Shown: positions 32,178 through 47,722 of the stretch, piece by piece | How the letters are laid out: each line of letters opens with the position of its first letter | How positions within the stretch are numbered: the first letter of the stretch is position 1 | NCBI RefSeq assembly: GCF_900142175.1 | Contig: NZ_FQZX01000001.1 | Coordinates: 1,178,001-1,242,000, forward strand | Length of the DNA stretch: 64,000 bases | Source of the DNA: Maribacter aquivivus | GTDB taxonomy: Bacteria; Bacteroidota; Bacteroidia; Flavobacteriales; Flavobacteriaceae | Direction of reading: 5' to 3' | Notes under the pieces: generated by a model | Database searches by the model: none | What the model was told of the DNA's origin: nothing | Seen by the model: the letters and a program-made list of their open reading frames with translations, nothing else | Made by a program: the position numbers and the translations under genes

Positions 32178-33203
32178 TTAAACCATTAAAGAAGAATCCC
32201 TAACGATAAGGCTGGTTTTGATCTCAACTGTTTTTGTCATTACATCATTTGTCGGGTTTTCAAGTTCTTGAATTAAGAAACGGACTGCAGTTCTTCCTAT
32301 TTTATCACCAGGTTGATCCACTGTTGTTAGTGCGGGACTAACGATGGTGGAGTTAATAGAGTTGCTAAAACCTACTACAGCTATTTCTTCAGGTATTTTT
32401 ACTTTGAACTTATGTAGTGCCTTTATGGCGCCTATGGCAGCATTATCGGTTATGGCAAATATAGCATCAGGGCGTTTCTTCATGCTTAAAAGAATATTGG
32501 TCAATCGTCTTCCGTTTCCTAAAGAAATATCTTCGGTACTTAAAATAAGTTTATTGCGAACAGGAATGCCGTATTGCTTTAAGGCTCTTAAATAACCGGC
32601 ATACCTTTTTTCAGAATTATAAGAATTCTCCGTTTCCTTAATAATGGCAATACGCTGTTTACCCAGTTCAATTAAATGCTCAACGGCATTAAATGCAGCT
32701 TCCTCTTCATTGATTACAACTTGTGTACAAGGTATTTTGCTAGAAACTTTATCGAAGAGGACTATAGGTATACGATTTAATATTTTTAATATCTCTTCAA
32801 CATTGGTTGTTTTTCTTGCCAATGACATTAATACCCCGTCGACACCAAATTGTGTCATGGTATTTAGCATTTCTACTTGTTTAGCCTCGTTATTGTTAGA
32901 TTCTGAAATAATAACACGATATCCGCGTAGCTCGGCTTCTTCCAAAATTCCCTTTAAAATGGTTGAAGTAAATAAATGAGATATGTTGGGTACGATTACT
33001 CCAAGTATATGAGTTTCACGTGAGCGAAAGCCTCTCGCAAATAAATTGGGTACATAATTCATTTGCTTAGCAAGCTTTTTAACCCGCTCTTTAGTGCCCT
33101 GGCTAATATCGGGGTGATCATTAAGAGCCCTAGAAACTGTGGAAATCGACAGACTCAATTCTTTAGATAACTCTTTTAATGTGGTATTTCTCTTTTTACT
33201 CAT
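32178..33203 (-). CDS. LacI-family transcriptional regulator of the glycosylglycerate locus
   Basis: 341 aa. N-terminal LacI HTH (TTLKELSKELSLSISTVSRALND) with hinge helix, then a periplasmic-binding-protein-like sensor (ILGVIVPNISHLFTSTILKG, 'GVDGVLMSLARKT', 'RPDAIFAITDNAAIGAIKALH', 'PALTTVDQPGDKIGRTA'). It is transcribed away from the TonB receptor gene, with a tandem LacI-type operator between them (33261-33287). It probably senses the imported sugar or a breakdown product and controls the genes at 33399-40424, and itself. Ligand unknown. Confidence 0.94.
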   Translation of the reverse strand: MSKKRNTTLKELSKELSLSISTVSRALNDHPDISQGTKERVKKLAKQMNYVPNLFARGFRSRETHILGVIVPNISHLFTSTILKGILEEAELRGYRVIISESNNNEAKQVEMLNTMTQFGVDGVLMSLARKTTNVEEILKILNRIPIVLFDKVSSKIPCTQVVINEEEAAFNAVEHLIELGKQRIAIIKETENSYNSEKRYAGYLRALKQYGIPVRNKLILSTEDISLGNGRRLTNILLSMKKRPDAIFAITDNAAIGAIKALHKFKVKIPEEIAVVGFSNSINSTIVSPALTTVDQPGDKIGRTAVRFLIQELENPTNDVMTKTVEIKTSLIVRDSSLMV

Positions 33204-33260
33204 AATTGAAAATCAGTGAATTATGATGATTTTATAAGAAATACAATACTACAAAATAAA

Positions 33261-33287
33261 TTGCAAACGTTTGTGCAAACGTTTGCA
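33261..33287. promoter_or_regulatory. Tandem LacI-type operator
   Basis: GCAAACGTTTG at 33263-33273 followed directly by the perfect 14-bp palindrome TGCAAACGTTTGCA at 33274-33287, a head-to-tail repeat of 12 bp. The central AACGTT step is what LacI-family hinge helices recognise. It lies about 60 bp before the lacI start and 112 bp before the receptor start, so it can control both. Confidence 0.88.
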
Positions 33288-33398
33288 TAGAAAATTCGTT
33301 AATATTTGGTTAATAGAATGCTATATTCATATAATTTGGTCTCATAATCAACGATTTGATAATTTAAATCGACTCAACTTAAAAAAAACTCAAACATT

Positions 33399-36074
33399 AT
33401 GAAGAAAATTATTTTTGCGGTAATCGGACTTCTTATCAGTGCAAGCTCCTTTGCACAGACCGATATTTCAGGAACCGTAACAGACAGTTCAGGAGAGCCA
33501 ATTCCCGGTGCTAACATTTTAATTACAGGTAGTACATCGGGTACAACATCAGATTTTGATGGTAATTTTACTTTTTCAACAGACCTTACCGGTGCTCAAA
33601 TATTACGTGTATCATATATAGGTTTTACATCTGTTGACAAATCATTAGATTTAAACGGTACAGCACAAACTGTAAATGTTGTGCTACAAGAAGGTGGTCA
33701 GCAACTTGATGAAGTTGTTCTAACGGCTTCTAGTACATTTCGTTCTCAAAAACAGGCACCTCTATCTATTAGCTCTGTTAAAATGAAAGAAATTACTAAG
33801 CTTTCTGCTAATAGTCAGGCAGATATTCTTAGAAGTGTACCTGGTATTACCGCTGAAGGTGGTGGTGGTGAAACGGCAAGTAACATATTCGTTAGAGGTT
33901 TACCTTCTGGTGGTCAGTATGTTTTTAACCCTTTACAGTATGACGGTATGCCTTTGATTAGTTCTTTCGGACTAAACTCTTCTGCGCATGATGTCTATGC
34001 AAGACCAGATATAGGTTTTAAAGGTGTTGAATTTGTTCGTGGTGGTGCAGCTGTATTATATGGTGCAGGTTCTGTTGCTGGTATTATCAACTACACAAGT
34101 AAAACGGGTGATACGAACCCTGGTAATATTATTAATATTGAAGTTGCCAACCAAGGTAGAATTAAAACAGATTTTTATTCTGGTGGTCAGCTAGGTGGTG
34201 AAGATTCTAATACATATTATGCTTTTACAGGTTTTGTACGTCATGATAGAGGTCCTATAGATGTAGGTTTACCAACTAAAGGTGTTCAATTTAGAGGTAA
34301 CATCAAAAAGAAGTTCGATAATGGTTTTTTTACTTTAAGCGGACAGTTTATTGACGATAAGGCACAATTTTATCTTCCTATTCCATTAAGTGGTGGTAGT
34401 AGAGAGCGTATAAACGGTAATGATGGTAACCCAGTTGAACAGTTGTTATCTGGTGACTTAGCGAATACTTCATTCAATACTCCTGGTGGAACATATAATA
34501 GTCCGATTGCAGATGGTGTTGCAACTACAGGTGGTTACATTATGGGTGATTTCAATTACAGATTTGAAGATGATCTTAAATTGACTTCTAAGATTAAATA
34601 TGCCAACTACAAGCATAATTTCGCATTATATGTTGGTGGTAACGGTGCAAATGGAAATCCTATTACTTTAGATAATTATGTAGAAAGTATAGCTCCTGGT
34701 AACTTAGGGTATACTGCTGCTTACCAAAGTGGATCGGGTTCTCAAATTAATGGTAATGACCTAGTAATCGATAATTTACATGTGGATCGTTTACGCCCAA
34801 TGACAGATTACTCTGGTGAGATTAACCTTACAAAATCTATTGAGACGGCAAACGGTGGTAACCATAACATTACTGTTGGTTCTTATATAGCTCGTACAGA
34901 GGCTGAAGATGTTAACTATCAATATAGAGTATTGACAGAATTCAACAATAACCCACAATTGGTAAACTTAAATTATACCGATGCTGGTGGCGATAATGTA
35001 GTGTATTCTCAAGGCGGACTTTATAACCGTATTGGTCAGACAGCTAATAACTTTCTTTCTCAAAATAGATTGGCATTATATGTTACCGATGAGATGATTT
35101 TAAACAAATGGCGTTTTGATGTTGGTTTCAGATGGGAACATACAGATGGTATCAACAGTCGTGGTGGTATTATGAGCGAAACAGTTTACACTACTCCAGA
35201 TATTACATCAGAACTTAGTGATGTACAAACTGCAGATGGTTCTTTCTTAAGAACAGAAGTAAATGCAAGTGCTTGGGCATTGTCTTTAGCTGGTTTGTAT
35301 GAGTTAACTGAAACAACCAACCTTTATGCTAACTTCTCTAAAGGATATTTCTTTCCACAATTAAGAGGTTTTGCTCCAGTACCTGGTATTTCTGAAAGTC
35401 CTTACGATGCTGAAAATATTATTCAATTTGAAGCTGGTGCCAAATTCGGTAACGAGAAATTCTCAGGATCTGTTGCAGGGTACTATGTAGGTCTTAAAGA
35501 TCGTGTATCTATTCGCCAAGCAATTGTAGGTGGTCAATTAATAGATGAAACAAGAGCAGAGCAAAATACAAGAACAATAGGTCTTGAAGCTACCGGAGAT
35601 TATTCTATTGCACAATACTTAAATCTTCGTGGTAATGTAACATATCAAGATCATGAGATTACAAAGAATACCGATTTCGATTTAGTAAATGGTACTTCTA
35701 CAGAAGCTAATGTTGGTAACGAATTGGCAAGACAGCCAAACTTATTAGGTGGCTTAGGGTTGTACTATGATAACGCTGCTTTTGATGCAAATTTCGGATT
35801 CAACTATACGGGAGCAAAGTTTACAGATGACACCAATAATATAGAATTAGATGCCATAACAATTGGCAGACTAGGTGCAGGTTATACATTCTCAAAAGAA
35901 GATAACAACCAGTCTGTTCGTTTAGGGGTGTCAGTTTTTAACCTATTCGATAGTGATGGTATCACAGAAGGTAATCCTAGAGCTGGTTCAGCTGGTCAAA
36001 CAGAATCTCAATTTTTTGTTGGTAGACCAATTTTACCTAGAAGATTGTTCGTTACAGCGACCTTCAATTTCTAG
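33399..36074 (+). CDS. TonB-dependent outer-membrane receptor of the glycosylglycerate locus
   Basis: 891 aa. Signal peptide (MKKIIFAVIGLLISASSFAQ), CarboxypepD_reg-like domain (about 22-105, ISGTVTDSSGEPIPGANILI), plug domain (about 115-230, ILRSVPGITAEGGGGETASN, FVRGLPSGGQ, VEFVRGGAAVLYGAGSVAGI) and a 22-strand barrel ending in Phe (RRLFVTATFNF). The signature is of the iron/small-ligand receptor kind, not SusC, and no SusD gene follows, which suits a low-mass substrate. It opens the operon controlled by the LacI regulator; the terminator at 36108 may reduce read-through to the hydrolase gene. Confidence 0.93.
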   Translation: MKKIIFAVIGLLISASSFAQTDISGTVTDSSGEPIPGANILITGSTSGTTSDFDGNFTFSTDLTGAQILRVSYIGFTSVDKSLDLNGTAQTVNVVLQEGGQQLDEVVLTASSTFRSQKQAPLSISSVKMKEITKLSANSQADILRSVPGITAEGGGGETASNIFVRGLPSGGQYVFNPLQYDGMPLISSFGLNSSAHDVYARPDIGFKGVEFVRGGAAVLYGAGSVAGIINYTSKTGDTNPGNIINIEVANQGRIKTDFYSGGQLGGEDSNTYYAFTGFVRHDRGPIDVGLPTKGVQFRGNIKKKFDNGFFTLSGQFIDDKAQFYLPIPLSGGSRERINGNDGNPVEQLLSGDLANTSFNTPGGTYNSPIADGVATTGGYIMGDFNYRFEDDLKLTSKIKYANYKHNFALYVGGNGANGNPITLDNYVESIAPGNLGYTAAYQSGSGSQINGNDLVIDNLHVDRLRPMTDYSGEINLTKSIETANGGNHNITVGSYIARTEAEDVNYQYRVLTEFNNNPQLVNLNYTDAGGDNVVYSQGGLYNRIGQTANNFLSQNRLALYVTDEMILNKWRFDVGFRWEHTDGINSRGGIMSETVYTTPDITSELSDVQTADGSFLRTEVNASAWALSLAGLYELTETTNLYANFSKGYFFPQLRGFAPVPGISESPYDAENIIQFEAGAKFGNEKFSGSVAGYYVGLKDRVSIRQAIVGGQLIDETRAEQNTRTIGLEATGDYSIAQYLNLRGNVTYQDHEITKNTDFDLVNGTSTEANVGNELARQPNLLGGLGLYYDNAAFDANFGFNYTGAKFTDDTNNIELDAITIGRLGAGYTFSKEDNNQSVRLGVSVFNLFDSDGITEGNPRAGSAGQTESQFFVGRPILPRRLFVTATFNF

Positions 36075-36107
36075 AAAGAAAGTTTTGTTAGTTTAAGTTT
36101 AATTGAT

Positions 36108-36147
36108 AAACACATTGGTAGTTGCAGAATTGCCAATGTGTTTTTTT
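36108..36147 (+). terminator. Intrinsic terminator after the TonB receptor gene
   Basis: Perfect 11-bp stem AAACACATTGG (36108-36118) / CCAATGTGTTT (36133-36143), 14-nt loop, followed by a T-run to 36147. Partial read-through would set the ratio of receptor to downstream enzymes. Confidence 0.8.
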
Positions 36148-36148
36148 A

Positions 36149-36236
36149 CTCGATTATCGAGATTTAAATGCTCAGACGCTTGCGTCGAAATATTAATTAC
36201 GTTTTCAATTCAATGCCTCGCGGGCTTGACCCGAGG
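36149..36236. repeat. Cluster of palindromic elements before the hydrolase gene
   Basis: CTCGATTATCGAG (36149-36161, inverted copy of the element at 29053), GACGCTTGCGTC (36175-36186, 5-bp hairpin) and the GC-rich CCTCGCGGGCTTGACCCGAG-type hairpin (36216-36236: CCTC/GAGG and GGG/CCC around CTTGA). These stand out from the AT-rich surroundings and resemble dispersed REP-like elements. Confidence 0.6.
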
Positions 36237-36252
36237 TTATTTACTAGATATT

Positions 36253-37566
36253 ATGAAGGAAGAATTATATAAAAAAGCAATTGCAGTATTAGATGCAAAT
36301 TTTCAAGAAGGTGGTTTTACTATACCTAGTGCAGGTTTATATCCTTTTCAATGGAAATGGGATTCTGGCTTCATCGCCATTGGTTTTGCCCATTACGATG
36401 TTGAAAAGGCAAAAACTGAAATGAGAACTTTGCTAGATGCACAATGGGAAAACGGTTTTATACCTCATATCGTTTTTCATACAGAGAACGATTCTTACTT
36501 TCCTGGGGCAGATTTTCATCAATCTGAATTGCATCCCTTGTCCTCCAAAAAATATAGGTCTACAGGTATGACCCAGCCGCCGGTAACCGGTTTTGTGCTA
36601 CAAGAAATGTATCGTATCGCAGAAGATAAGCAAGATATGCTCAACTTTATCAAAGAAGAAATTGATAAGGTATATGAAAATCATGCTTACTTCTATTCAA
36701 ATAGAGATCCACAAGATGAAGGTTTGGTGTACATCTATCACAACTGGGAATCTGGTACAGATAATTCTCCTGTTTGGGATGATATTTGGAAAACGATGAA
36801 TCCGCCAGAATATACTTTTGTTCGAAAAGATACTACACATGTTGATGCTTCTCAGCGCCCGACTAAAAGAGAATATGATCACTATTTACATATCATAGAT
36901 ATTGCCAAGCAAAACAATTATGATGATGCTAAAATAGCGGAGCTTTCACCATTTTTGGTTCAAGATCCTTTGTTCAATGCCATGTTAATTAAATCTAATC
37001 AGGCATTAGTTGATATGTATATTATGATCGGTGGAAATGAAGAGAAAATTAAGACCATTTTAAAATGGCAATCGAAAAGTATTGAAAGCTTCAATAATAA
37101 ATTATTTGATGCTGAATTAGGTGCTTATGTGCATTACGATTTAAGAAATGAAAAACCTATTAGGCATATAACGTCTTCATCTTTTTCGCCATTATTCGCA
37201 AATATTCCTTCTCAAGAAAGAGCTGAGGTCTTAGTGAAAACAATGATGAATAAATTTGGAGGAGAGGATAAATACCTATGTGCTTCTTTTGATCCTACAA
37301 ATGATCGATTTAATCCTAAAAAATATTGGAGAGGTCCCGTTTGGATCAATATGAATTGGATGCTCTTTTTAGGACTTAAGAATTATGGTTTTACCGATGT
37401 TGCTGCACGTATGAAGCAAGATAGCATTGAGCTTATAGAGAAATATGGCTTCTATGAATATTTTGATTGTAGAAAAGATACTGGTGAAGAGAATACCCCT
37501 GGTTATGGAGGCAACAATTTTTCATGGAGTGCTGCTTTGTTTATTGATATGGTGAATACACCATAG
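36253..37566 (+). CDS. GH63-like glycoside hydrolase, mannosylglycerate/glucosylglycerate hydrolase type
   Basis: 437 aa from ATG at 36253; a frame opening at 36103 would read through the terminator and palindromes and is rejected. No signal peptide, so cytoplasmic. (alpha/alpha)6-barrel motifs: FQWKWDSGF (33-40), 'WESGTDNSPVWDD' (165-177) with Asp170 the likely general acid, 'KYWRGPVWINMNW', and FYEYFD (400-405) followed by TGEENTPGYGGNNFSWSAAL, where Glu402 is the likely base. Size and motifs match the compact MGH1/GH63 family that includes Thermus MgH and mycobacterial GgH, which cut mannosyl- or glucosylglycerate. The glycerate kinase downstream supports this substrate. A trehalase or alpha-glucosidase activity cannot be ruled out. 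Confidence 0.82.
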   Translation: MKEELYKKAIAVLDANFQEGGFTIPSAGLYPFQWKWDSGFIAIGFAHYDVEKAKTEMRTLLDAQWENGFIPHIVFHTENDSYFPGADFHQSELHPLSSKKYRSTGMTQPPVTGFVLQEMYRIAEDKQDMLNFIKEEIDKVYENHAYFYSNRDPQDEGLVYIYHNWESGTDNSPVWDDIWKTMNPPEYTFVRKDTTHVDASQRPTKREYDHYLHIIDIAKQNNYDDAKIAELSPFLVQDPLFNAMLIKSNQALVDMYIMIGGNEEKIKTILKWQSKSIESFNNKLFDAELGAYVHYDLRNEKPIRHITSSSFSPLFANIPSQERAEVLVKTMMNKFGGEDKYLCASFDPTNDRFNPKKYWRGPVWINMNWMLFLGLKNYGFTDVAARMKQDSIELIEKYGFYEYFDCRKDTGEENTPGYGGNNFSWSAALFIDMVNTP

Positions 37567-37594
37567 TGTTATAAAATGATTTAAAGGTTTAAAA

Positions 37595-37681
37595 ATGAAC
37601 TACATTGATTATTTTTTAGTCGGATTTTACATAATGGGTATTTTAGGAGTAGGTCTCTTGATCAAAAAAAATAAAAACTAG
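37595..37681 (+). CDS. 28-codon ORF resembling the first helix of the downstream symporter
   Basis: ATG 37595, TAG 37679-37681, 3 nt before the symporter ATG. The peptide begins MNYIDYFLVGFYIMGILGVG and ends in a Lys/Asn-rich tail; the symporter begins MNYVDYIIIVVYLVGFLGLG. So it is a single-helix homologue of the transporter N-terminus. It could be a remnant of a duplicated symporter start or a real small membrane protein that pairs with the transporter. Spacing and a start codon in good context favour translation, but nothing proves it. Confidence 0.55.
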   Translation: MNYIDYFLVGFYIMGILGVGLLIKKNKN

Positions 37682-37684
37682 GAT

Positions 37685-39289
37685 ATGAATTACGTTGATT
37701 ACATTATTATTGTCGTTTACCTAGTTGGATTTTTAGGTTTGGGCTTCATGTTTAAAGATAATAATACGGGTGGAGATTACTTCTTAGGTGGTCGTAAAAC
37801 ATCATGGTTGCCGTTAAGTTTGTCTGCAATGGCTACCCAATTATCTGCTATCAGTTTTATATCGGCTCCTGCTTTTGTTGGTCTCAAAGAAGGTGGTGGT
37901 ATGCAATGGCTTACCTATGAATTAGGTGTACCCTTGGCTATGGCCTTTTTGTTAATTGCAGTATTGCCAACGTTATATAAATCAGGTATAGTTAGTGTTT
38001 ATGAATATTTAGAAACACGATTCGATGCTTCTTCTCGATTATTGATAAGTTTTGTTTTTCAAATAAGTAGATCGGTAGCTACTGGGGTTATGGTGTATAC
38101 TATGGCATTAATTCTACAAGCTACTATCGGATTAGAGTTTTGGATTTCAATTTTAATTATTGGTCTTATAACTATGGTTTATTCTTTTCAAGGCGGAATG
38201 AAAGCGGTTATATGGGGAGATGTTATTCAAATGAGTATCCTGTTTATAGGTATAATCATTTGTCTTTATTTTGGATTTAGTGAGCTTGGCGGAGTAGATA
38301 ATTTTCTTACTCATGTAGATACCGATAGAATTACTGCTGTAGATTTTAATAAATGGGGTTTCAATAATGCCGATGGAAATGATGAATTTGGGTTTTGGCC
38401 CATGGTCATTGGTGGCTTTTTTCTTTACGCTTCTTATTACGGTACAGATCAAACTCAGTCGCAACGATTGTTGTCTTCTAGTAGCATGTCTAACCTTAAA
38501 AAACTAATGATGGCAAACGGACTCCTTCGTTTTCCGTTTACGTTAACCTATTGTATTATGGGTCTTGTGTTGGGTACATTATTAATGCAAGATGTAACTT
38601 TTCAAGAACAAATGGAAACTGTCTATCAAGCTAATATTGGTTCTTTAGCAGGTAAAAAGGCAGATTTAATGGTGCCGGTTTTTATTATTAAATATTTACC
38701 TAATGGTGTTATTGGTATATTGATTGTTGCTATAATGTCAGCAGCAATGTCAACCTTAAGTTCAACGGTAAATTCATTATCAGCCGTAACCATGGAAGAT
38801 TTTGTAAAAAGATTCAACCCTAACATGCCCGATAAAAAATACATGACGTATTCAAAATTGTTGTCCATTTTTTGGGGTCTGGTATGTTTGTTCTTTGCAT
38901 TTTTTGCGGGTAATATAGAAGGCACGGTCATAGAAGTAATTAATAAGATAAGTTCTGTCTTCTACGGTCCTATTTTAGCAGCTTTCATTTTAGCGATTCT
39001 TACTAAGAGAACACATGCGCTTGGTGCCAATATTGGTATTGTAGTAGGGGTGCTGTTCAATATTTATTTATGGTTATATGTGCCACAAATATTTTGGTTC
39101 TGGTGGAACGCGCTTGGTTGTTTAGTAACTATATTGGTTGCTTTGGCAGTGAGCTATACTGTCAAAAGGCAAGTTAACGAAGGCTTAGAGGTAACGTATT
39201 ATTCTGGTAAGAAAGAGGTAGCAATATTACTTGGTTACTTTGTGCTAATTGTACTGTTCAGTATTTCATTACCTAATATTTTGAATTAG
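37685..39289 (+). CDS. Sodium:solute symporter (SSS family)
   Basis: 534 aa with about 13 transmembrane helices. SSS hallmarks: GGRKTSWLPLSLSAMATQLSAISFISAPAF near the start (helices 1-2), 'YGTDQTQSQRLL' (sodium-symporter signature region) and 'SAAMSTLSSTVNSLSAVTMEDF'. Such carriers move sugars, amino acids or organic acids with Na+. Between a cytoplasmic hydrolase and a glycerate kinase it most likely imports the intact glycosylglycerate across the inner membrane. It starts 3 nt after the 28-codon ORF and ends 4 nt before the kinase gene. Confidence 0.93.
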   Translation: MNYVDYIIIVVYLVGFLGLGFMFKDNNTGGDYFLGGRKTSWLPLSLSAMATQLSAISFISAPAFVGLKEGGGMQWLTYELGVPLAMAFLLIAVLPTLYKSGIVSVYEYLETRFDASSRLLISFVFQISRSVATGVMVYTMALILQATIGLEFWISILIIGLITMVYSFQGGMKAVIWGDVIQMSILFIGIIICLYFGFSELGGVDNFLTHVDTDRITAVDFNKWGFNNADGNDEFGFWPMVIGGFFLYASYYGTDQTQSQRLLSSSSMSNLKKLMMANGLLRFPFTLTYCIMGLVLGTLLMQDVTFQEQMETVYQANIGSLAGKKADLMVPVFIIKYLPNGVIGILIVAIMSAAMSTLSSTVNSLSAVTMEDFVKRFNPNMPDKKYMTYSKLLSIFWGLVCLFFAFFAGNIEGTVIEVINKISSVFYGPILAAFILAILTKRTHALGANIGIVVGVLFNIYLWLYVPQIFWFWWNALGCLVTILVALAVSYTVKRQVNEGLEVTYYSGKKEVAILLGYFVLIVLFSISLPNILN

Positions 39290-39293
39290 AACT

Positions 39294-40424
39294 ATGGCAA
39301 TGAAATTTGTAATAGCTCCAGACAAGTTTAAAGGTTCTTTAACAGGATTCGAGTTTTGCGATGCGGTAGAAGAGGGTATAAAAATGGTTTTTAAAGATGC
39401 CGAAATCATAAAGAAACCCTTAGCTGATGGTGGGGATGGTACTATGGAAGTTGCTAAGCATTATATAAAAGGAGAAGCTGTTACGGTTACTGTAAACGAC
39501 CCTCTTTTTAGACCTATTAATGCTTCTTATTTATATTCTGATGAAACTAAAATAGCCTATATAGAGATGGCAGAAGCATCAGGATTAAAATTGCTGAATG
39601 TTGATGAGTTTAATTGTATGGAAACCACCACATCTGGTACTGGGGAATTAATTTATGATGCATTAGAGAAAGGTGCCACTGAAATAATTTTAGGTATTGG
39701 TGGTAGCGCCACAAATGATGGTGGTATGGGCATGGCAAATGCTTTGGGGTATCGTTTTTTAGATGATAACGGTCAAGAATTAATTCCTATCGGAAAAAAT
39801 CTTTCAAAGGTCAAATCAATAGATGATTCCAATAAAAATAATAGACTTGATTCGGTAAAGGTTAAAGTTGCTTGCGATGTAACCAATCCGTTTTATGGGT
39901 TACAAGGTGCAGCCTATATTTATGGGGCACAAAAAGGTGCCTCTGAAAATGAGATTATATATCTAAATCAAGGTTTGTGCAACTTTGCAGAAATTATTAA
40001 AAATCGTTATAAAATCGATTTACAGAAAGTAAGTGGTGCCGGTGCAGCTGGCGGTGTTGGTGGTGGTGCCCTTGTTTTTCTGAATGGCGAATTAATTTCA
40101 GGAAATAATTTAATAAAGGAACTTGCAGATTTTAATAACGCAATCAAAGGAGCAGATTGGATTATTACTGGTGAAGGTCAGTTAGATGAGCAAACGCTGT
40201 CCGGAAAAACTATAGATGGTGTAGTAACATCTGCCAAAATGAATAAAATACCTGTTGCCGCACTTTGCGGATCGGTTAGTATAAGCGTGGCACAACAACA
40301 AAAATTTGGTTTAGCTTACGTTGCATCGATTGTAAGAGGTATTTCTACTTTGAAAGAAGCTATGGAACACAGTAAGGACAATCTTGTAAATGCCGCTTTT
40401 AACTTTGCAAGTTTGATTAAATAA
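39294..40424 (+). CDS. glxK: Glycerate 2-kinase (GarK/GlxK type)
   Basis: 376 aa from ATG 39294. Signatures of the type II glycerate kinase family: FVIAPDKFKGSLTGFEFCDA, 'KPLADGGDGTMEVA', 'GIGGSATNDGGMGMANALGY' (glycine-rich nucleotide region), 'VSGAGAAGGVGGGAL' and 'WIITGEGQLDEQTLSGKT'. It phosphorylates D-glycerate to 2-phosphoglycerate, feeding glycolysis. Together with the GH63-like hydrolase it explains both halves of a glycosylglycerate: sugar plus glycerate. Last gene of the locus. Confidence 0.95.
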   Translation: MAMKFVIAPDKFKGSLTGFEFCDAVEEGIKMVFKDAEIIKKPLADGGDGTMEVAKHYIKGEAVTVTVNDPLFRPINASYLYSDETKIAYIEMAEASGLKLLNVDEFNCMETTTSGTGELIYDALEKGATEIILGIGGSATNDGGMGMANALGYRFLDDNGQELIPIGKNLSKVKSIDDSNKNNRLDSVKVKVACDVTNPFYGLQGAAYIYGAQKGASENEIIYLNQGLCNFAEIIKNRYKIDLQKVSGAGAAGGVGGGALVFLNGELISGNNLIKELADFNNAIKGADWIITGEGQLDEQTLSGKTIDGVVTSAKMNKIPVAALCGSVSISVAQQQKFGLAYVASIVRGISTLKEAMEHSKDNLVNAAFNFASLIK

Positions 40425-40678: not shown

Positions 40679-43600
40679 ATGACTAAACCTACAACCACTT
40701 ATTTAATTCAATATACTGCTTGGAAAAAAGTGTTCACGTTTTTCCTTTTAGTACTGGTGAATAGCGTATTATTCTCTCAGAAAACTACGGGCTGGGATGA
40801 AATAGGATCAACAAACATTTATGAATCATATAGTTCTGATAATTTAGTTAGAGTAGAGTGTAGAGTCACTGGCGGAGTTTCTATTTCAGGTGAAGATACT
40901 ATGGGGTGTATTTCTGATAATACCTACGGTAATCCAGATCCAGTTATTTTTGGAGAAACTTCTTTAGGAATATCCATTAATCCGCTCTTTTCAGGAAGCA
41001 TCGAGTTTCATTTCTTTGATGCGGTAACTGGAGATGAGGTATTTATTACTAATCCATATCTAAATGTTGATAAAGTTGGAACATTTGGAGCACTACCTTT
41101 GCCTTTTTTGACCGGTACAAATACTGGAGTTTTCACTTCTACAAATGGTACATGGACAAATATTGGTAAGAATGGCGATATTTTTGTGTCTACAAATACA
41201 GAATTTAAGATAGACGCTGATGCTCTTTTAAGCTTTAACGGAGGTGAGTGTGGTAATAATTCATTTGATGGTACTGGTGGCGGTACTATGAAAATGGATG
41301 ATGCAGTTAAATCTATTAATATGGATGTTTCTGTATCGGGATTACTTTCACTTTTTCAAGAAGATGTTGAGTTTGTAATATCCAATCTAATTATAGCTGA
41401 ACCAGAAATAGAAGTAACAAAGACTGTTTTAAACAGTTTTAGCTCTCCTGTTGTAACAGGTGATGCTGTAGATTATACTATTGAAGTGGAGAACACAGGT
41501 AATGTGAAAGTTACCAATGTTGCTTTGACAGATACGTTCAAAGATGCTAGCGGAAATACAATTACACTAAGTAATGCTCCATCATTTTCATCCGCAACAA
41601 TGAGTTCTTTAGAAGGTACGCTTTTAGCTGGTGAAGTGGCAACATATTCTGCAAGCCATATTCTAACTGCTAATGAGATTGCTGAAGGCGGAGTAATAAA
41701 TCAGGTAAGTGTATTAGCAGATAGTCCATACGGTCCGGGAGACACTGATGATCTGTCCGATGATGGAGATGATACAGATGGTAATTTACTTGACGATACT
41801 ACAGATAGTTTTTTTCCTATTCCCTTAGAGAATACCGAAACGGTAGAAAAGAATAATTCCGTTGATATTTTAGTGACCAATAATGATGATTTTGGTGGTA
41901 ATGGTCCTAACTCTGGTAGTATATTTATTGTAAGTACACCAACAAACGGTAGTGTATCATTGAATAATAATGGGACAGCGACAAATCCGGTAGATGATTA
42001 CTTTACTTATACACCTGATACTGATTACACGGGGACTGATTCTTTTATATATGGAATAACGGATTCTAAAGGTTATACACAGCATGCAACTGTTACGATA
42101 ACGGTGTATGCTTGTCCAAATGCAGGAATTGATGGAACGTTAAATATCTGTCAAGGAGATAGCTTTACAAACGCAGACCTTTTTGCACAACTATCAGGTT
42201 CTCCTGATGCTGGCGGAACATGGTTTGATAATGGCGATGGAACTCATACGTACACAGTAGCTGCAATAGCACCATGTATAGCGGACGATGAAAGTATCGT
42301 AACCGTAACCGAGCAAGCGCAACCAAATGCAGGAATCGATGGAACCTTGAATATTTGTGCCGGAGCTACATTCACAAATGCAGACCTTTTCGCACAGTTA
42401 ACCGGAAATCCAGATACTGGTGGAACTTGGGCAGATAATGGCGATGGAACTCACACGTACACAGTAGCTGCAATAGCACCATGTACAGCGGATGATGAAA
42501 GTATTGTAACCGTAACCGAGCAAGCACAACCGAATGCAGGAATTGATGGAACGTTGAATATATGTGTCGGAGATAGTTTTGATAATAATGATCTGTTCGC
42601 ACAGTTGACCGGAAATCCAGACACTGGCGGAACATGGTTTGATAATGGCGATGGAACTCATACATATACAGTAGCTGCAATAACACCATGTACAACGGAC
42701 GATGAAAGTATTGTAACGGTAACCCAACAAGCACAACCCAATGCCGGTGTTGATGGAACATTGAATATTTGTTCTGGAGATAGTTTTGACAATAATGATC
42801 TGTTCGCACAATTAACCGGTTCACCAGATACAGGTGGAACATGGGTTGATAATGGAAATGGCACACATACCTATACTGTAGCTGCAACTGCACCATGTAC
42901 AATAGACGATGAAAGTATTGTAACGGTAACCCAACAAGCACAACCCAATGCCGGTGTTGATGGAGTATTGAATATCTGTCAAGGGGATACATTTGATAAT
43001 AATGATCTGTTCGCACAATTAACCGGTTCACCGGATACAGGAGGAACATGGGTTGATAATGGAAATGGCACACATACTTATACTGTAGCGGCAACAGCAC
43101 CATGTACTACAGATGATGAAAGTATCGTAACGGTAACCCAACAAGCGCAACCAAATGCAGGAATTGATGGAACTTTAAATATCTGTCAGGGGGATACTTT
43201 TGACAATAATGATTTGTTCTCACAATTGACCGGTTCTCCAGATTCGGGCGGAACATGGGTTGATAATGGAAATGGAACGCACACCTATACCGTAGCTGCA
43301 ATAGCACCATGTGCAACGGACGATGAAAGTATTGTAACGGTAACCCAACAAGCGCAACCAAATGCAGGAATCGATGCAACGTTGAATATTTGTGTAGGCG
43401 ATAGTTTTGACAATAATGATCTGTTCGCACAATTAACCGGTTCACCGGATACAGGTGGAACATGGGTTGATAATGGAAATGGCACACATACTTATACAGT
43501 AGATGCAACAGCGCCTTGTACAACGGACGATGAAAGTATTGTAACAGTAACCCAACAAGCGCAACCAAATGCAGGAATTGATGGAACGTTGAATATCTGT

Positions 43601-46600
43601 CAAGGAGCTACTTTTGATAATGATGATTTATTTGCCCAATTAACAGGCAGTCCAGATACAGGTGGAACATGGGCAGATAATGGCGATGGAACTCATACGT
43701 ACACAGTAGCTGCAACTGCACCATGTACAACGGACGATGAAAGTATCGTAACCGTAACCGAGCAAGCGCAACCAAATGCAGGAATTGACGGAACATTAAA
43801 TATATGCGAAGGAGATACTATTACCAATGCAGACCTTTTTGCACAACTATCAGGTTCTCCTGATGCTGGCGGAACATGGTTTGATAATGGCGATGGCACA
43901 TATAAGTATACGGTATCGGCAATTTCACCATGTACTTTAGACGATGAAAGTATTGTAACGGTAACCCAACAAGCACAACCCAATGCCGGTTTTGATGGAA
44001 CATTGAATATCTGTCAAGGGGATACATTTGATAATAATGATCTGTTCGCCCAATTAACAGGAAATCCAGATACTGGTGGAACATGGGTTGATAATGGAAA
44101 TGGCACACATACTTATACGGTAACTGCAACAGCACCATGTACTACAGATGATGAAAGTATCGTAACCGTATCCGAGCAAGCACAACCGAATGCGGGTATC
44201 GACGGAACGTTGAATATCTGTGCCGGAGCTACATTCGATAATGATGATTTATTCGCACAACTAACAGGAAATCCAGATTCTGGTGGAACTTGGGTTGATA
44301 ATGGCGATGGAACACATTCGTACACAGTTACTGCAACTGCACCATGTGCTTTAGACGATGAAAGTATCGTAACCATAACCCAACAAGCACAACCAAATGC
44401 AGGAATTGATGGAACTTTAAATATCTGTCAGGGGGATACTTTTGACAATAATGATTTATTCGCACAATTAACAGGTTCACCAGATACAGGCGGCTCATGG
44501 ACGGACAATGGCGACGGAACACATACATATACGGTATCGGCAATATCACCTTGTACAGTAGATGACGAAAGTATCGTAACCGTAAACCAGCAAGCACAAC
44601 CGAATGCGGGTATCGACGGCTCATTGAATATTTGCACCGGAGATACATTCGATAATGATGATTTATTCGCACAACTAACAGGAAATCCAGATACTGGTGG
44701 AACTTGGGTTGATAATGGCGATGGAACACATTCGTACACAGTTACTGCAGCTGCACCATGTACAACAGACGATGAAAGTATCGTAACCGTAACCGAGCAG
44801 GCACAACCAAATGCCGGAGGCGATGGAACATTGAATATCTGTCAAGGAGCAACTTTTGACAATGATGATCTATTTGGTCAGCTTACAGGTAATCCAGAAA
44901 CAGGCGGAACATGGGCAGATAATGGAAATGGAACACATTCGTACACAGTTACTGCAGCTGCACCATGTACAACAGACGATGAAAGTATCGTAACCGTAAC
45001 CGAGCAGGCACAACCAAATGCCGGAGGCGATGGAACATTGAATATCTGTCAAGGAGCAACTTTTGACAATGATGATCTATTTGGTCAGCTTACAGGTAAT
45101 CCAGAAACAGGCGGAACATGGGCAGATAATGGAAATGGCACACATACTTATACGGTAGCAGCAATTGCGCCATGTACTATAGATGATGAAAGTACAGTAA
45201 CCGTAACCGAGCAAGCGCAACCCAATGCGGGAATCGACGGAACATTGAATATATGTTCTGGAGATAGTTTTGACAATAATGATCTGTTCGCACAATTAAC
45301 CGGTTCACCAGATACAGGTGGAACATGGGTTGATAATGGAAATGGCACACATACTTATACTGTAGCTGCAACTGCACCGTGTACAACAGATGATGAAAGT
45401 ATCGTTACCGTAACAGAGCAAGCGCAACCCAATGCAGGAATTGACGGAACATTAAATATTTGCGAAGGTGATACTATTACCAATGCAGACCTTTTTGCAC
45501 AACTATCAGGTTCTCCTGATGCTGGCGGAACATGGGCTGATAATGGGAATGACACGTTCTCTTATACAGTTTCGGGGATTGCACCTTGTGCGACTAATGA
45601 CACTAGTATTGTCACTGTAGAATTTAATCAGACAGATGCTGATGGCAACGGAATCATAGATTGTAAAGAAACCATTATAGTGCTACCTATTATCACCATA
45701 GATGATGTTACAGTAGATAATATCGTTAATGAAACCGAAGCCCAGAATCCGGTTTCTATAACCGGAACAGTTTCGGGTGATTTTATAACGGGAGACATCG
45801 TTACTTTAATCATAAATGCCAATGATTACACCGGTCCTGTTAATGAAAATGGTTTTTTTGAAATATCGGTGCCTGGCACAGACTTAGAAGCAGATGTGGA
45901 TAGTACTATTATTGCTTCGGTAACTACGCTAACTATTGAAGGAAACACAGGGTCAGCTTCTGATCAACATACTTACATTGTTGATACTGAACCGCCTCTA
46001 GTAGATAGTTTTGAAACTATGGATACGTTTCCAATTTTACTTGGTTTGGGGAGTCCTAATGAAATATTGAATATAACTGTTGAGGTAGGTGATACGGGCA
46101 TAATTTTAGAATATATAATCAATACTGATATCAATGGAATATGGGAAATACATACCGATGTAGATGTACCAGAAAATAATTCTTTTCCTATAATTGATTC
46201 TGAAATAACATTATTTATAACAGCAGTTGATTTGGCTGGTAATGAAGGTAATGGTGAAGTGATTATCATTTTCGATAATGAAATCTTAAACAATGATAGT
46301 GATAATGATGGTTTGCCAGATGATGAAGAACTTTCTTTAGGTACAGATCCAAATAACCCCGATACGGATGGAGACGGAATCATGGACGGACAAGAAGTTG
46401 TAGATGAAACCAATCCGTTAGATCCATGTGATTCCATTGGAGGTACGCCGCCATCAGGAAGCGGATGTGATCTTTATGTGGAACTAGATTTAGTGAAACC
46501 TGGTGATATCATGAATGGTGGTTTTGAAATTATTAACATTGAACGGTTCCCTGAGAACATTGTAAAAATTTATAATAGATACGGAGTATTGGTTTGGGAG

Positions 46601-46768
46601 GTTGAAGGTTATGAAAATGATACCAAAGCATTTACAGGCATATCCGAAGGAAGAATAACGATTAATCAGAATGAAAAATTACCGTCTGGTACATATTACT
46701 ATGATATTTATTATACCGACAAAGGAGAACAAAAAATGTTAACGGGTTACCTATACCTAATTCGATAA
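40679..46768 (+). CDS. Giant T9SS type B secreted adhesin with 17 tandem 69-aa repeats
   Basis: 2029 aa. Signal region (AWKKVFTFFLLVLVNSVLFSQ), an N-terminal beta-rich domain (45-240), a DUF11-like domain (about 245-380, EVTKTVLNSFSSPVVTGDAV), a cadherin/Ig-like domain (about 385-475), 17 repeats of 69 aa (about 478-1650), Ig-like domains, a calcium-binding type-3-repeat region (NDSDNDGLPDDEELSLGTDP) and a C-terminal gliding-motility-associated sorting domain (FPENIVKIYNRYGVLVWEVE, GTYYYDIYYTDKGE), the type B T9SS signal. It is followed by PorP/SprF and an OmpA protein, the usual partners that anchor such cargo. Likely role: surface adhesion or gliding. Confidence 0.9.
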   Translation: MTKPTTTYLIQYTAWKKVFTFFLLVLVNSVLFSQKTTGWDEIGSTNIYESYSSDNLVRVECRVTGGVSISGEDTMGCISDNTYGNPDPVIFGETSLGISINPLFSGSIEFHFFDAVTGDEVFITNPYLNVDKVGTFGALPLPFLTGTNTGVFTSTNGTWTNIGKNGDIFVSTNTEFKIDADALLSFNGGECGNNSFDGTGGGTMKMDDAVKSINMDVSVSGLLSLFQEDVEFVISNLIIAEPEIEVTKTVLNSFSSPVVTGDAVDYTIEVENTGNVKVTNVALTDTFKDASGNTITLSNAPSFSSATMSSLEGTLLAGEVATYSASHILTANEIAEGGVINQVSVLADSPYGPGDTDDLSDDGDDTDGNLLDDTTDSFFPIPLENTETVEKNNSVDILVTNNDDFGGNGPNSGSIFIVSTPTNGSVSLNNNGTATNPVDDYFTYTPDTDYTGTDSFIYGITDSKGYTQHATVTITVYACPNAGIDGTLNICQGDSFTNADLFAQLSGSPDAGGTWFDNGDGTHTYTVAAIAPCIADDESIVTVTEQAQPNAGIDGTLNICAGATFTNADLFAQLTGNPDTGGTWADNGDGTHTYTVAAIAPCTADDESIVTVTEQAQPNAGIDGTLNICVGDSFDNNDLFAQLTGNPDTGGTWFDNGDGTHTYTVAAITPCTTDDESIVTVTQQAQPNAGVDGTLNICSGDSFDNNDLFAQLTGSPDTGGTWVDNGNGTHTYTVAATAPCTIDDESIVTVTQQAQPNAGVDGVLNICQGDTFDNNDLFAQLTGSPDTGGTWVDNGNGTHTYTVAATAPCTTDDESIVTVTQQAQPNAGIDGTLNICQGDTFDNNDLFSQLTGSPDSGGTWVDNGNGTHTYTVAAIAPCATDDESIVTVTQQAQPNAGIDATLNICVGDSFDNNDLFAQLTGSPDTGGTWVDNGNGTHTYTVDATAPCTTDDESIVTVTQQAQPNAGIDGTLNICQGATFDNDDLFAQLTGSPDTGGTWADNGDGTHTYTVAATAPCTTDDESIVTVTEQAQPNAGIDGTLNICEGDTITNADLFAQLSGSPDAGGTWFDNGDGTYKYTVSAISPCTLDDESIVTVTQQAQPNAGFDGTLNICQGDTFDNNDLFAQLTGNPDTGGTWVDNGNGTHTYTVTATAPCTTDDESIVTVSEQAQPNAGIDGTLNICAGATFDNDDLFAQLTGNPDSGGTWVDNGDGTHSYTVTATAPCALDDESIVTITQQAQPNAGIDGTLNICQGDTFDNNDLFAQLTGSPDTGGSWTDNGDGTHTYTVSAISPCTVDDESIVTVNQQAQPNAGIDGSLNICTGDTFDNDDLFAQLTGNPDTGGTWVDNGDGTHSYTVTAAAPCTTDDESIVTVTEQAQPNAGGDGTLNICQGATFDNDDLFGQLTGNPETGGTWADNGNGTHSYTVTAAAPCTTDDESIVTVTEQAQPNAGGDGTLNICQGATFDNDDLFGQLTGNPETGGTWADNGNGTHTYTVAAIAPCTIDDESTVTVTEQAQPNAGIDGTLNICSGDSFDNNDLFAQLTGSPDTGGTWVDNGNGTHTYTVAATAPCTTDDESIVTVTEQAQPNAGIDGTLNICEGDTITNADLFAQLSGSPDAGGTWADNGNDTFSYTVSGIAPCATNDTSIVTVEFNQTDADGNGIIDCKETIIVLPIITIDDVTVDNIVNETEAQNPVSITGTVSGDFITGDIVTLIINANDYTGPVNENGFFEISVPGTDLEADVDSTIIASVTTLTIEGNTGSASDQHTYIVDTEPPLVDSFETMDTFPILLGLGSPNEILNITVEVGDTGIILEYIINTDINGIWEIHTDVDVPENNSFPIIDSEITLFITAVDLAGNEGNGEVIIIFDNEILNNDSDNDGLPDDEELSLGTDPNNPDTDGDGIMDGQEVVDETNPLDPCDSIGGTPPSGSGCDLYVELDLVKPGDIMNGGFEIINIERFPENIVKIYNRYGVLVWEVEGYENDTKAFTGISEGRITINQNEKLPSGTYYYDIYYTDKGEQKMLTGYLYLIR
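42110..45628 (+). repeat. 17 tandem 207-bp (69-aa) repeats
   Basis: Each unit begins AQPNAGIDGTLNIC (unit 1: ACPNAG) and contains TGGTW.DNG(D/N)GTHTYTV and APC..DDESIVTVT(E/Q)Q. Two cysteines per unit (NIC and PC) could form a disulfide. Units 14 and 15 are identical at the nucleotide level over about 210 bp (44721-44930 against the copy 207 bp downstream), showing recent tandem duplication. The repeat number is likely to vary between isolates and is a risk for assembly collapse. Confidence 0.93.
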
Positions 46769-46771
46769 AGA

Positions 46772-47722
46772 ATGAAGAAAATAACAAACATATTCTTTTT
46801 GAGTTTTATCGTAATGCTATGCGGTCAACAAATGGTATTAGGGCAGCAAGATGCGCAGTACACCCAATACATGTACAACACTTTTTCGGTGAACCCTGCT
46901 TATGCTGGATCTCGTGATGCCTTAAGTATTTCTGCATTGCACAGATCGCAATGGGTGGGTAGAGATGGAGCTCCAAATACACAAACTTTAAGTGTTCACG
47001 GGCCAACTTCGAATAAAGTAGGACTAGGTTTATCAATAGTGCATGATGAAATAGGGAACAATACCAACCAGAATACATATTTAGATGCTGCTTTTTCATA
47101 TACTGTAGAAACTTCTGAAACAGATAAGTTGTCCTTTGGGGTAAAAGCTGGCGGACATTTATTAAATCTAGATTTTAACAACCTTCGAAATTACAGTGCA
47201 GGTGGTGTAGCCATAACCGATGCGGATCTATATAAAAAGTTTACGCCCAATTTTGGAGCGGGAATTTATTATCATAACGATAAGTTTTACACTGGTTTAT
47301 CCATCCCCAACTTCTTGCAAACGGAGCATTTTGACAGTTCTGATGGCAACGAGAGCTTGGTCTCGGTAGATAGGGTTACTTGGTACTTAATTTCTGGTTA
47401 TGTTTTTGACATGTCGCCATCATTAAAATTTAAACCGGCATTTTTATTAAAAGCAACATCTGGCGCACCTTTACAAGCAGATATATCGGCTAATTTTTTA
47501 TTGAACGATAAATTTTCAATGGGTGCTGCTTACAGATGGGATGCTGCTTTAAGTGCATTGTTCGGATTTCAAATGACTCCTGAATTTATGCTAGGCTTGG
47601 CATATGATAGTGATATCTCTGAATTGGGTGGCACGAAATATAATAACGGCTCTTTCGAGGTGTTTCTTAGGTATGAGTTTTTGAAGAAAGATAAAATTGA
47701 TTTAACCCCTAGATTCTTTTAA
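46772..47722 (+). CDS. PorP/SprF family type IX secretion outer-membrane protein
   Basis: 316 aa. Signal peptide ending near GQQ, then QDAQYTQYMYNTFSVNPAYAGSRDALSIS, the diagnostic PorP/SprF opening, and alternating strands of a small outer-membrane barrel ending RYEFLKKDKIDLTPRFF. It starts 3 nt after the adhesin stop. In Bacteroidota these proteins are needed for surface retention or secretion of the adjacent type B cargo. Confidence 0.95.
   Translation: MKKITNIFFLSFIVMLCGQQMVLGQQDAQYTQYMYNTFSVNPAYAGSRDALSISALHRSQWVGRDGAPNTQTLSVHGPTSNKVGLGLSIVHDEIGNNTNQNTYLDAAFSYTVETSETDKLSFGVKAGGHLLNLDFNNLRNYSAGGVAITDADLYKKFTPNFGAGIYYHNDKFYTGLSIPNFLQTEHFDSSDGNESLVSVDRVTWYLISGYVFDMSPSLKFKPAFLLKATSGAPLQADISANFLLNDKFSMGAAYRWDAALSALFGFQMTPEFMLGLAYDSDISELGGTKYNNGSFEVFLRYEFLKKDKIDLTPRFF

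Follow-up and report, generated by a model that had tools for sequence, protein, structure and literature searches.

What compound is taken up and degraded by the products of the gene cluster at positions 32178 to 40424 of this Maribacter aquivivus window? The window is the whole stretch of 64,000 nucleotides analyzed here, from contig NZ_FQZX01000001.1 of a genome of 4,578,396 bases; the closest named relatives by the hydrolase gene of the cluster are Maribacter sp. 1_MG-2023, M. spongiicola and M. stanieri (97%, 94% and 93% identity). The observations described below suggest that the cluster is probably a locally regulated catabolic operon for alpha-mannosylglycerate (MG, also called digeneaside), a soluble red-algal product and a sugar-acid osmolyte of red algae and some bacteria. 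The original prediction for this DNA, made from its letters, was that a glycosylglycerate is utilized. We are confident in this assignment because the active-site residues (seven of seven in the glycerate pocket, with a paralogue control), the presence of the kinase, the preservation of the gene set in 59 of 80 related loci and the local operator all point to it. The choice of MG as the natural substrate is made with fair confidence.

The five-gene unit

The unit begins with a regulator gene on the minus strand, followed by four genes on the plus strand:

32178..33203, minus strand: LacI-family regulator, divergent from the operon (PF00356, E 2.3e-11; PF13377, E 2.3e-33)
33399..36074, plus strand: TonB-dependent receptor with a CarbopepD_reg-like N-terminal domain and no SusD partner (PF07715, PF00593, PF13715, the last being CarbopepD_reg_2)
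36253..37566, plus strand: predicted mannosyl/glucosylglycerate hydrolase of the MGH1-like GH63 group, 437 aa (PF22422, E 1.3e-91)
37685..39289, plus strand: sodium/solute symporter (SSF), presumed inner-membrane importer (PF00474, E 8.5e-46)
39294..40424, plus strand: glycerate kinase (PF02595, E 4.1e-136; PDB 3cwc, E 6.1e-83)

The families of all five proteins were assigned by Pfam and NCBIfam profile searches with curated cut-offs. The symporter exceeds both of its family cut-offs (TIGR00813, 256.7 against 184; PF00474, 157.1 against 22.8), and so does the kinase (TIGR00045, 431.8 against 168.45; PF02595, 454.2 against 23.3). As the kinase scores below the NCBIfam cut-offs of both the 2-kinase and the 3-kinase equivalogs, it is named here a glycerate kinase, with no phosphorylated position. 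The gaps between the genes measure 178 bp (receptor to hydrolase), 118 bp (hydrolase to symporter) and 4 bp (symporter to kinase).

SusD is absent within the unit, where the open reading frames (ORFs) of at least 90 aa are the five genes and three opposite-strand frames inside them; between the receptor and the hydrolase there is no such ORF besides the hydrolase frame. The receptor scores 108.6 against a SusC cut-off of 368.25. A TonB receptor lacking SusD, as had been claimed, is thus what the unit contains, and a classical SusCD polysaccharide utilization locus is rejected for the same lack of SusD.

Active site of the hydrolase

The hydrolase matches PF22422 over the entire profile (positions 1-356 of 356) with 308.3 bits against a cut-off of 27; weaker matches to the Trehalase and GH63 Pfam families are also seen. 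Its closest solved structures are PDB 2z07 (E 2e-93, residues 5-431), 6g3n (E 1e-61) and 5ohc (E 1.6e-60). The first of these is Thermus thermophilus TTHA0978 (PDB 2z07, 4wva-c), which we take to be a mannosylglycerate hydrolase and which the entries call an uncharacterized protein. The other two represent the glucosylglycerate hydrolase (GgH) of Mycolicibacterium hassiacum, and their link to the enzyme of PMC6608630 is made through the residue numbering. PMC6608630 names the catalytic residues D182 and E419 of the mycobacterial enzyme together with its sugar and glycerate contacts, and places it in GH63, so that the class given in the original prediction, GH63-like, was the right one.

In the window hydrolase, the catalytic acid and base are by alignment D170 and E402, a pair that is the same in 98 of 98 homologue rows. 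The glycerate contacts (MhGgH Y36, W40, Y88, W177, R216, Y222 and Y375) are all retained (7/7), and this is also true for Thermus, for the mycobacterial row and for 17/17 further homologue rows, among which two genes are counted twice (L133/L167 and L134/L172). The controls are 19 other PF22422 proteins of the phylum, which keep 1 to 4 of the seven contacts; they are those matches outside the hydrolase clade for which a locus was available, and they are remote, so that part of their contact loss is an alignment gap. Two rows of this alignment, L181 and L182, are shorter than their stated frames.

When the sugar and glycerate contacts are mapped together, 18 of 19 positions are identical to 5ohc. 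The exception is residue 434, a Gln in 5ohc and a Phe in the window hydrolase, in Thermus and in 98/98 homologue rows; the row labelled MhGgH, which is the 6g3n chain, also has Phe here, and the 18 rows designated as distant include three Flavobacteriaceae (L144-L146). Thermus TTHA0978 equals the window hydrolase at 19/19 mapped pocket positions.

The N-terminus of the hydrolase, MKEELYKKAI, has no signal-like hydrophobic start, and the enzyme is therefore likely to be located in the cytoplasm. Outside the window, the M. aquivivus genome encodes two GH63-like proteins with frames of 885 and 880 aa, about 8 kb apart, whose low PF22422 matches lie at C1:1832544-1833071 and C1:1840412-1840960.

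Conservation of the unit

Among sampled genomes, the hydrolase is present (E <= 1e-20) in 44 of 299 from Flavobacteriaceae and in 19 of 395 from the phylum as a whole, the two samples overlapping. For the gene order, the best 80 of 115 confirmed relatives were used as related loci, and the counts lean to close relatives. ORF clusters of the symporter, the kinase, the LacI protein and the receptor occur in 75, 74, 66 and 63 of these loci, respectively. All five genes are found in identical order and orientation in 59/80, which argues that the unit is not a chance arrangement. That the five genes, each at its predicted place, form one unit is thereby borne out. Among the 21 loci without the full set, some end at a contig edge (e.g. 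L054, L055, L057, L081, L098); in others the regulator and the receptor are missing though the contig continues (e.g. L084, L107, L110, L111, L113).

The receptor exists in two versions, with 63-98% or 44-50% identity (a partial 32% match in L112 is excluded), and likewise the symporter (69-99% or 50-55% among the related loci). The unit therefore swaps its importers and keeps the enzyme and the kinase. Outside Flavobacteriaceae, 15 loci were taken and 14 laid out, L137 being dropped as the ORF call missed its hydrolase. Receptor and symporter are both found in L132 and L133, and the symporter alone in L134; a LacI label is found in 0/14.

Several related loci carry additional genes. A GNAT acetyltransferase gene, which is not in the window, follows the hydrolase and precedes the symporter, where the contig reaches it, in 22/80 loci (L046, L049, L054, L055, L057, L060, L081-L083, L085-L090, L092, L093, L096, L098, L099, L104, L105); the distant locus L132 also has one, at 50% identity. 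A gene belonging to one ORF cluster is inserted between symporter and kinase in L098, L104, L107, L111 and L112, and a scan of the L098 member identifies a peptidase S66 (LD-carboxypeptidase). The symporter and kinase of L066 seem partly deleted or fused, each matching over about half its length, and a cupin isomerase-type gene is retained.

Mannose or glucose

Mannose is favored over glucose as the sugar moiety because isomerase-type genes of two families follow the kinase in some relatives and because MG synthesis genes adjoin some distant homologues. In L075, L079 (Lutibacter), L082 (Aquimarina) and L084 (Spongiivirga), the kinase gene is immediately followed by one for a type I mannose-6-phosphate isomerase, with a start at most 4 bp from the kinase end and an overlap in L082; the L075 protein is above the ManA equivalog cut-off (145.6 against 116.2). 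The second family is a cupin with a match to PF01050, the C-terminal domain of mannose-6-phosphate isomerase. Its gene starts 3-15 bp behind that of the kinase in L067-L069, L091 and L097, and it also follows the damaged kinase copy in L066; in L067 it scores 38.6 against 23.6 bits, with no equivalog hit. Both families together account for 10/80 loci; for these two clusters and the S66 cluster, a single representative (L067, L075 and L098) was scanned for its domain and the rest assigned by clustering. In the hydrolase tree, the type I cases are scattered and the cupin cases lie inside one clade of 11 tips. A ROK protein after the kinase in L054 (gap 62) was not counted as a mannokinase, being a single case that reaches no NCBIfam cut-off. 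Other first genes after the kinase were scanned in relatives, and nothing of the pathway was found among them.

The second line of evidence comes from 18 phylum-level loci. In four of them (L136, L139, L147, L149), a gene pair for mannosyl-3-phosphoglycerate (MPG) synthase and phosphatase lies divergently beside the hydrolase gene; in L136 both proteins of the pair exceed their equivalog cut-offs. On its other side, the hydrolase gene of L136 is followed by one for RtcB with an intein splicing domain. The M. aquivivus genome has two type I isomerase domain matches (C2:1167540 and C1:170028) and two ROK proteins, and mannose could therefore be handled by proteins encoded elsewhere.

Several observations weigh against the assignment of MG. 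Mannose and glucose are not told apart by the residues of the pocket: Thermus TTHA0978 is identical at all 19 sites, and according to PMC6608630 the T. thermophilus enzyme uses MG and glucosylglycerate (GG) with similar efficiency. In 70/80 loci no member of either isomerase cluster stands beside the kinase. The four synthesis-linked loci, each in a different genome, all belong to a single genus (g276) of another family and thus amount to one observation; the hydrolases they encode are only about 40% identical and branch as a clade of their own, for which the deep support is weak. A kinase label is found in 0/14 of the loci outside Flavobacteriaceae. The nearest curated model, the GgH equivalog NF047898, does not name the hydrolase (329 against a cut-off of 550).

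The strongest of the alternatives is that alpha-glucosylglycerate is the main substrate and MG a side substrate. GG is an osmolyte of cyanobacteria and nitrogen-starved bacteria. The pocket is common to MG- and GG-cleaving relatives, and most loci (70/80) lack both isomerase clusters. One relative prefers GG and others use both, as stated in PMC6608630, and PMC3985010 counts GG as one of the compounds common in a mat and in the consortia derived from it. Glucose, however, would not require a mannose-6-phosphate isomerase, whereas genes of two unrelated isomerase-type families follow the kinase in some loci. Furthermore, MG synthesis genes adjoin the distant homologues in one genus, and residue 434 is a Phe as in Thermus rather than the Gln of 5ohc. 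These points make GG a rather unlikely, though still serious, candidate for the main substrate.

An enzyme acting on another alpha-glycoside (trehalose, kojibiose or a host glycan), with the kinase present for another reason, is very improbable. The weaker Trehalase and GH63 Pfam matches and the occurrence of homologues in loci without a kinase label (14/14 outside the family) would agree with it, but the glycerate contacts are complete as compared with at most 4/7 in the paralogues, they are kept in the outside-family rows too, and the kinase cluster is present in 74/80 flavobacterial loci. A trehalose or kojibiose enzyme is set aside, as only the weaker Pfam matches speak for it and the glycerate set is intact. 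Recycling of self-made MG, for which the hydrolase genes beside synthesis genes in four distant loci of one genus might be quoted, is equally hard to credit, since the PF09488 MPG synthase was not found in the genome by a search that included a positive control genome (one-step MG and GG synthases were not searched), which argues for uptake, and since the unit includes outer- and inner-membrane importers and a LacI repressor.

Regulation of the operon

The catabolic operon for MG would be controlled from the region between the regulator and receptor genes:

33263..33286, no strand assigned: predicted double LacI-type operator, GCAAACGTTTGT-GCAAACGTTTGC, two 12-bp palindromic cores arranged head to tail, between LacI and receptor

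The sequence at these positions is GCAAACGTTTGTGCAAACGTTTGC. Allowing at most one mismatch, the operator core has 2 matches in the window against 0.09 expected, and in the whole genome the perfect 12-base core is found only once. Two AACGTT half-centers 12 bp apart (at most one mismatch) are found upstream of LacI in 58/66 relatives, compared with 4/3228 control windows drawn from the same loci over their whole length, coding DNA included; the eight relatives without them are L063, L071, L086, L095, L100-L102 and L109. The LacI helix-turn-helix domain (PF00356) and an adjacent palindromic site with a central CG are the features of a LacI-family regulator with a local operator. As the operator stands beside LacI, is conserved and has a core that is unique in the genome, the regulator is most likely local and dedicated to the unit. 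A second genomic place with spaced operator half-sites (C2:1111987) was dropped, because a control pattern also gives one place. A scan of the region for sigma-70 promoters was at chance level (35 found, 36.5 expected) and was not used.

A further candidate element lies downstream of the receptor gene:

36108..36143, plus strand: hairpin of 16 pairs followed by a T run, in the receptor-hydrolase gap (terminator-like scan, sequence inspected)

This hairpin is possibly an attenuator or a processing site. The terminator-like scan found 9 such elements in the region against 4.5 +/- 2.1 in shuffles, which is weak by itself.

Proposed pathway

The sequence itself shows the gene identities, the active-site residues, the conserved order and the operator. 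A route for MG can be described on this basis, in which we infer the substrate, the transport roles, the inducer and the use of the compound as food. The TonB receptor would carry the small charged glycoside across the outer membrane, and the SSF symporter, to which MG is assigned as substrate from the context, would carry the same glycoside across the inner membrane. In the cytoplasm, the GH63-type hydrolase would cleave it with inversion into mannose and D-glycerate. The glycerate would then be phosphorylated by the kinase of the unit, and the mannose would enter metabolism through a kinase and a mannose-6-phosphate isomerase encoded elsewhere in the genome, although some of the related loci have an isomerase gene within the operon itself. 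The divergent LacI protein would repress the unit at the double operator until it is released by the substrate or a product.

A small ORF upstream of the symporter gene

The gap between hydrolase and symporter genes contains an additional short frame:

37595..37681, plus strand: small ORF of 28 codons, ATG...TAG, MNYIDYFLVGFYIMGILGVGLLIKKNKN, in the hydrolase-symporter gap

The original prediction mentions neither this ORF nor the double operator or the hairpin downstream of the receptor gene. Its start lies exactly 90 nt 5' of the symporter start codon, and its product resembles the N-terminal helix of the symporter, MNYVDYIIIVVYLVGFLGLGFMFKDN (44% over 27 residues, E 3.4e-4). Most simply, the ORF would have arisen when the 5' end of the symporter gene was duplicated in tandem. 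The genus was represented by 36 genomes, not all of them complete; 12 have a separate open frame of this kind (E 1.7e-13 to 1.3e-5), and the symporter start adjoins it in 12/12; genomes G697 and G709 give the symporter match alone, with no separate small frame. Among hydrolase-symporter gaps of suitable size, the small ORF is present in 8/26, all Maribacter; the gaps in which it was not detected belong to 15 loci of other genera and to Maribacter L041, L042 and L044. It is also found at the end of the GNAT-symporter stretch in L096.

The 12 sequences of the small ORF suggest that its peptide is under selection. The proportions of synonymous and nonsynonymous differences are pS 0.638 and pN 0.137 (pN/pS 0.22, and also 0.22 in a count on 9 sequences), and the variable sites fall 13/4/20 on codon positions 1/2/3; since the relatives are not independent and the synonymous sites are near saturation, these figures describe a pattern and give no strict probability. 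Both shifted frames contain stops in 12/12. Conservation is stricter at the start of the symporter itself (pN 0.025). Stop-codon readthrough from the small ORF into the symporter was rejected: the start is in frame 90 nt on in 10/12 sequences, L199 and L200 being the exceptions.

Small membrane partners are encoded upstream of other SSF transporters, for example YjcH with ActP and YhdT with PanF. The arrangement in Maribacter is similar in that a gene for a putative small membrane protein directly precedes an SSF symporter gene. Unlike YjcH and YhdT, the putative Maribacter peptide has 28 residues and one likely helix, and resembles the N-terminus of the symporter itself. By analogy, we propose that it might act as a helper or a brake of the symporter. 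The full proposal, a single-helix membrane peptide of 28 residues that derives from a 90-nt tandem duplication at the symporter 5' end and is maintained by selection in Maribacter as a dedicated partner or brake of this symporter, is tentative, with somewhat less than an even chance of being correct. If the peptide is made, this would be a case of a transporter gene yielding its own small partner, one that is easily missed because gene callers skip such sizes.

Relation to known systems

In E. coli, mannosylglycerate is catabolized by mngAB, with a dedicated regulator, uptake by a phosphotransferase system (PTS) and a GH38 phospho-hydrolase. The Maribacter unit would share with it the predicted substrate and a dedicated regulator. 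The original prediction held that the route differs from mngAB, and Pfam finds neither a PTS nor a GH38 domain in the five proteins. With SusC/SusD loci, the unit shares a TonB receptor with a CarbopepD_reg-like domain beside a glycoside hydrolase; it differs from them in having no SusD, in a receptor below the SusC cut-off, and probably in a small-molecule substrate and a cytoplasmic enzyme.

The Maribacter hydrolase is like Thermus TTHA0978 in its near full-length match and identical pocket, and unlike it in belonging to an uptake operon with a receptor, a symporter, a kinase and a LacI regulator. It has the same catalytic D/E pair and glycerate contacts as the M. hassiacum enzyme (5ohc, 6g3n), from which it differs in the Phe in place of the Gln of 5ohc at residue 434 and in missing the GgH equivalog cut-off. 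The M. hassiacum enzyme is considered in PMC6608630 to mobilize a store made by the cell, which differs from the feeding role suggested for Maribacter.

The suggestion that no dedicated locus had been described in this phylum is not supported. According to PMC8072126, which cites Barbeyron et al. 2016b, Maribacter dokdonensis 62-1 holds homologues of the digeneaside-degradation genes of Zobellia galactanivorans, so that degradation of this compound had been predicted earlier in Zobellia and Maribacter; digeneaside is also named among further possible substrates in PMC6298971. The reported genes, which may be the ones described here, share with the present locus the predicted substrate and the bacterial family and, in one case, the genus. 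The available parts of PMC5507952 and PMC8950772 hold no description of the present locus. What is added here to the earlier reports is the glycerate-pocket control, the evidence for mannose, the double operator and the small ORF.

The hydrolase, the kinase and the double operator together might serve as a compact genetic marker for mannosylglycerate consumers across marine Flavobacteriaceae. In addition, the feeding form of the locus is set apart from the synthesis-linked form in one other genus of the phylum.

Neighboring genes

On the 3' side of the unit lies a gene for a protein of 2029 aa (40679-46768, plus strand) with 16.6 tandem copies of a 207-bp unit, followed by genes for a PorP/SprF protein (46772-47722) and an OmpA/PD40 protein (47735-49648). 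The segment 40679-49648 is a predicted type IX secretion/adhesin-like cluster.

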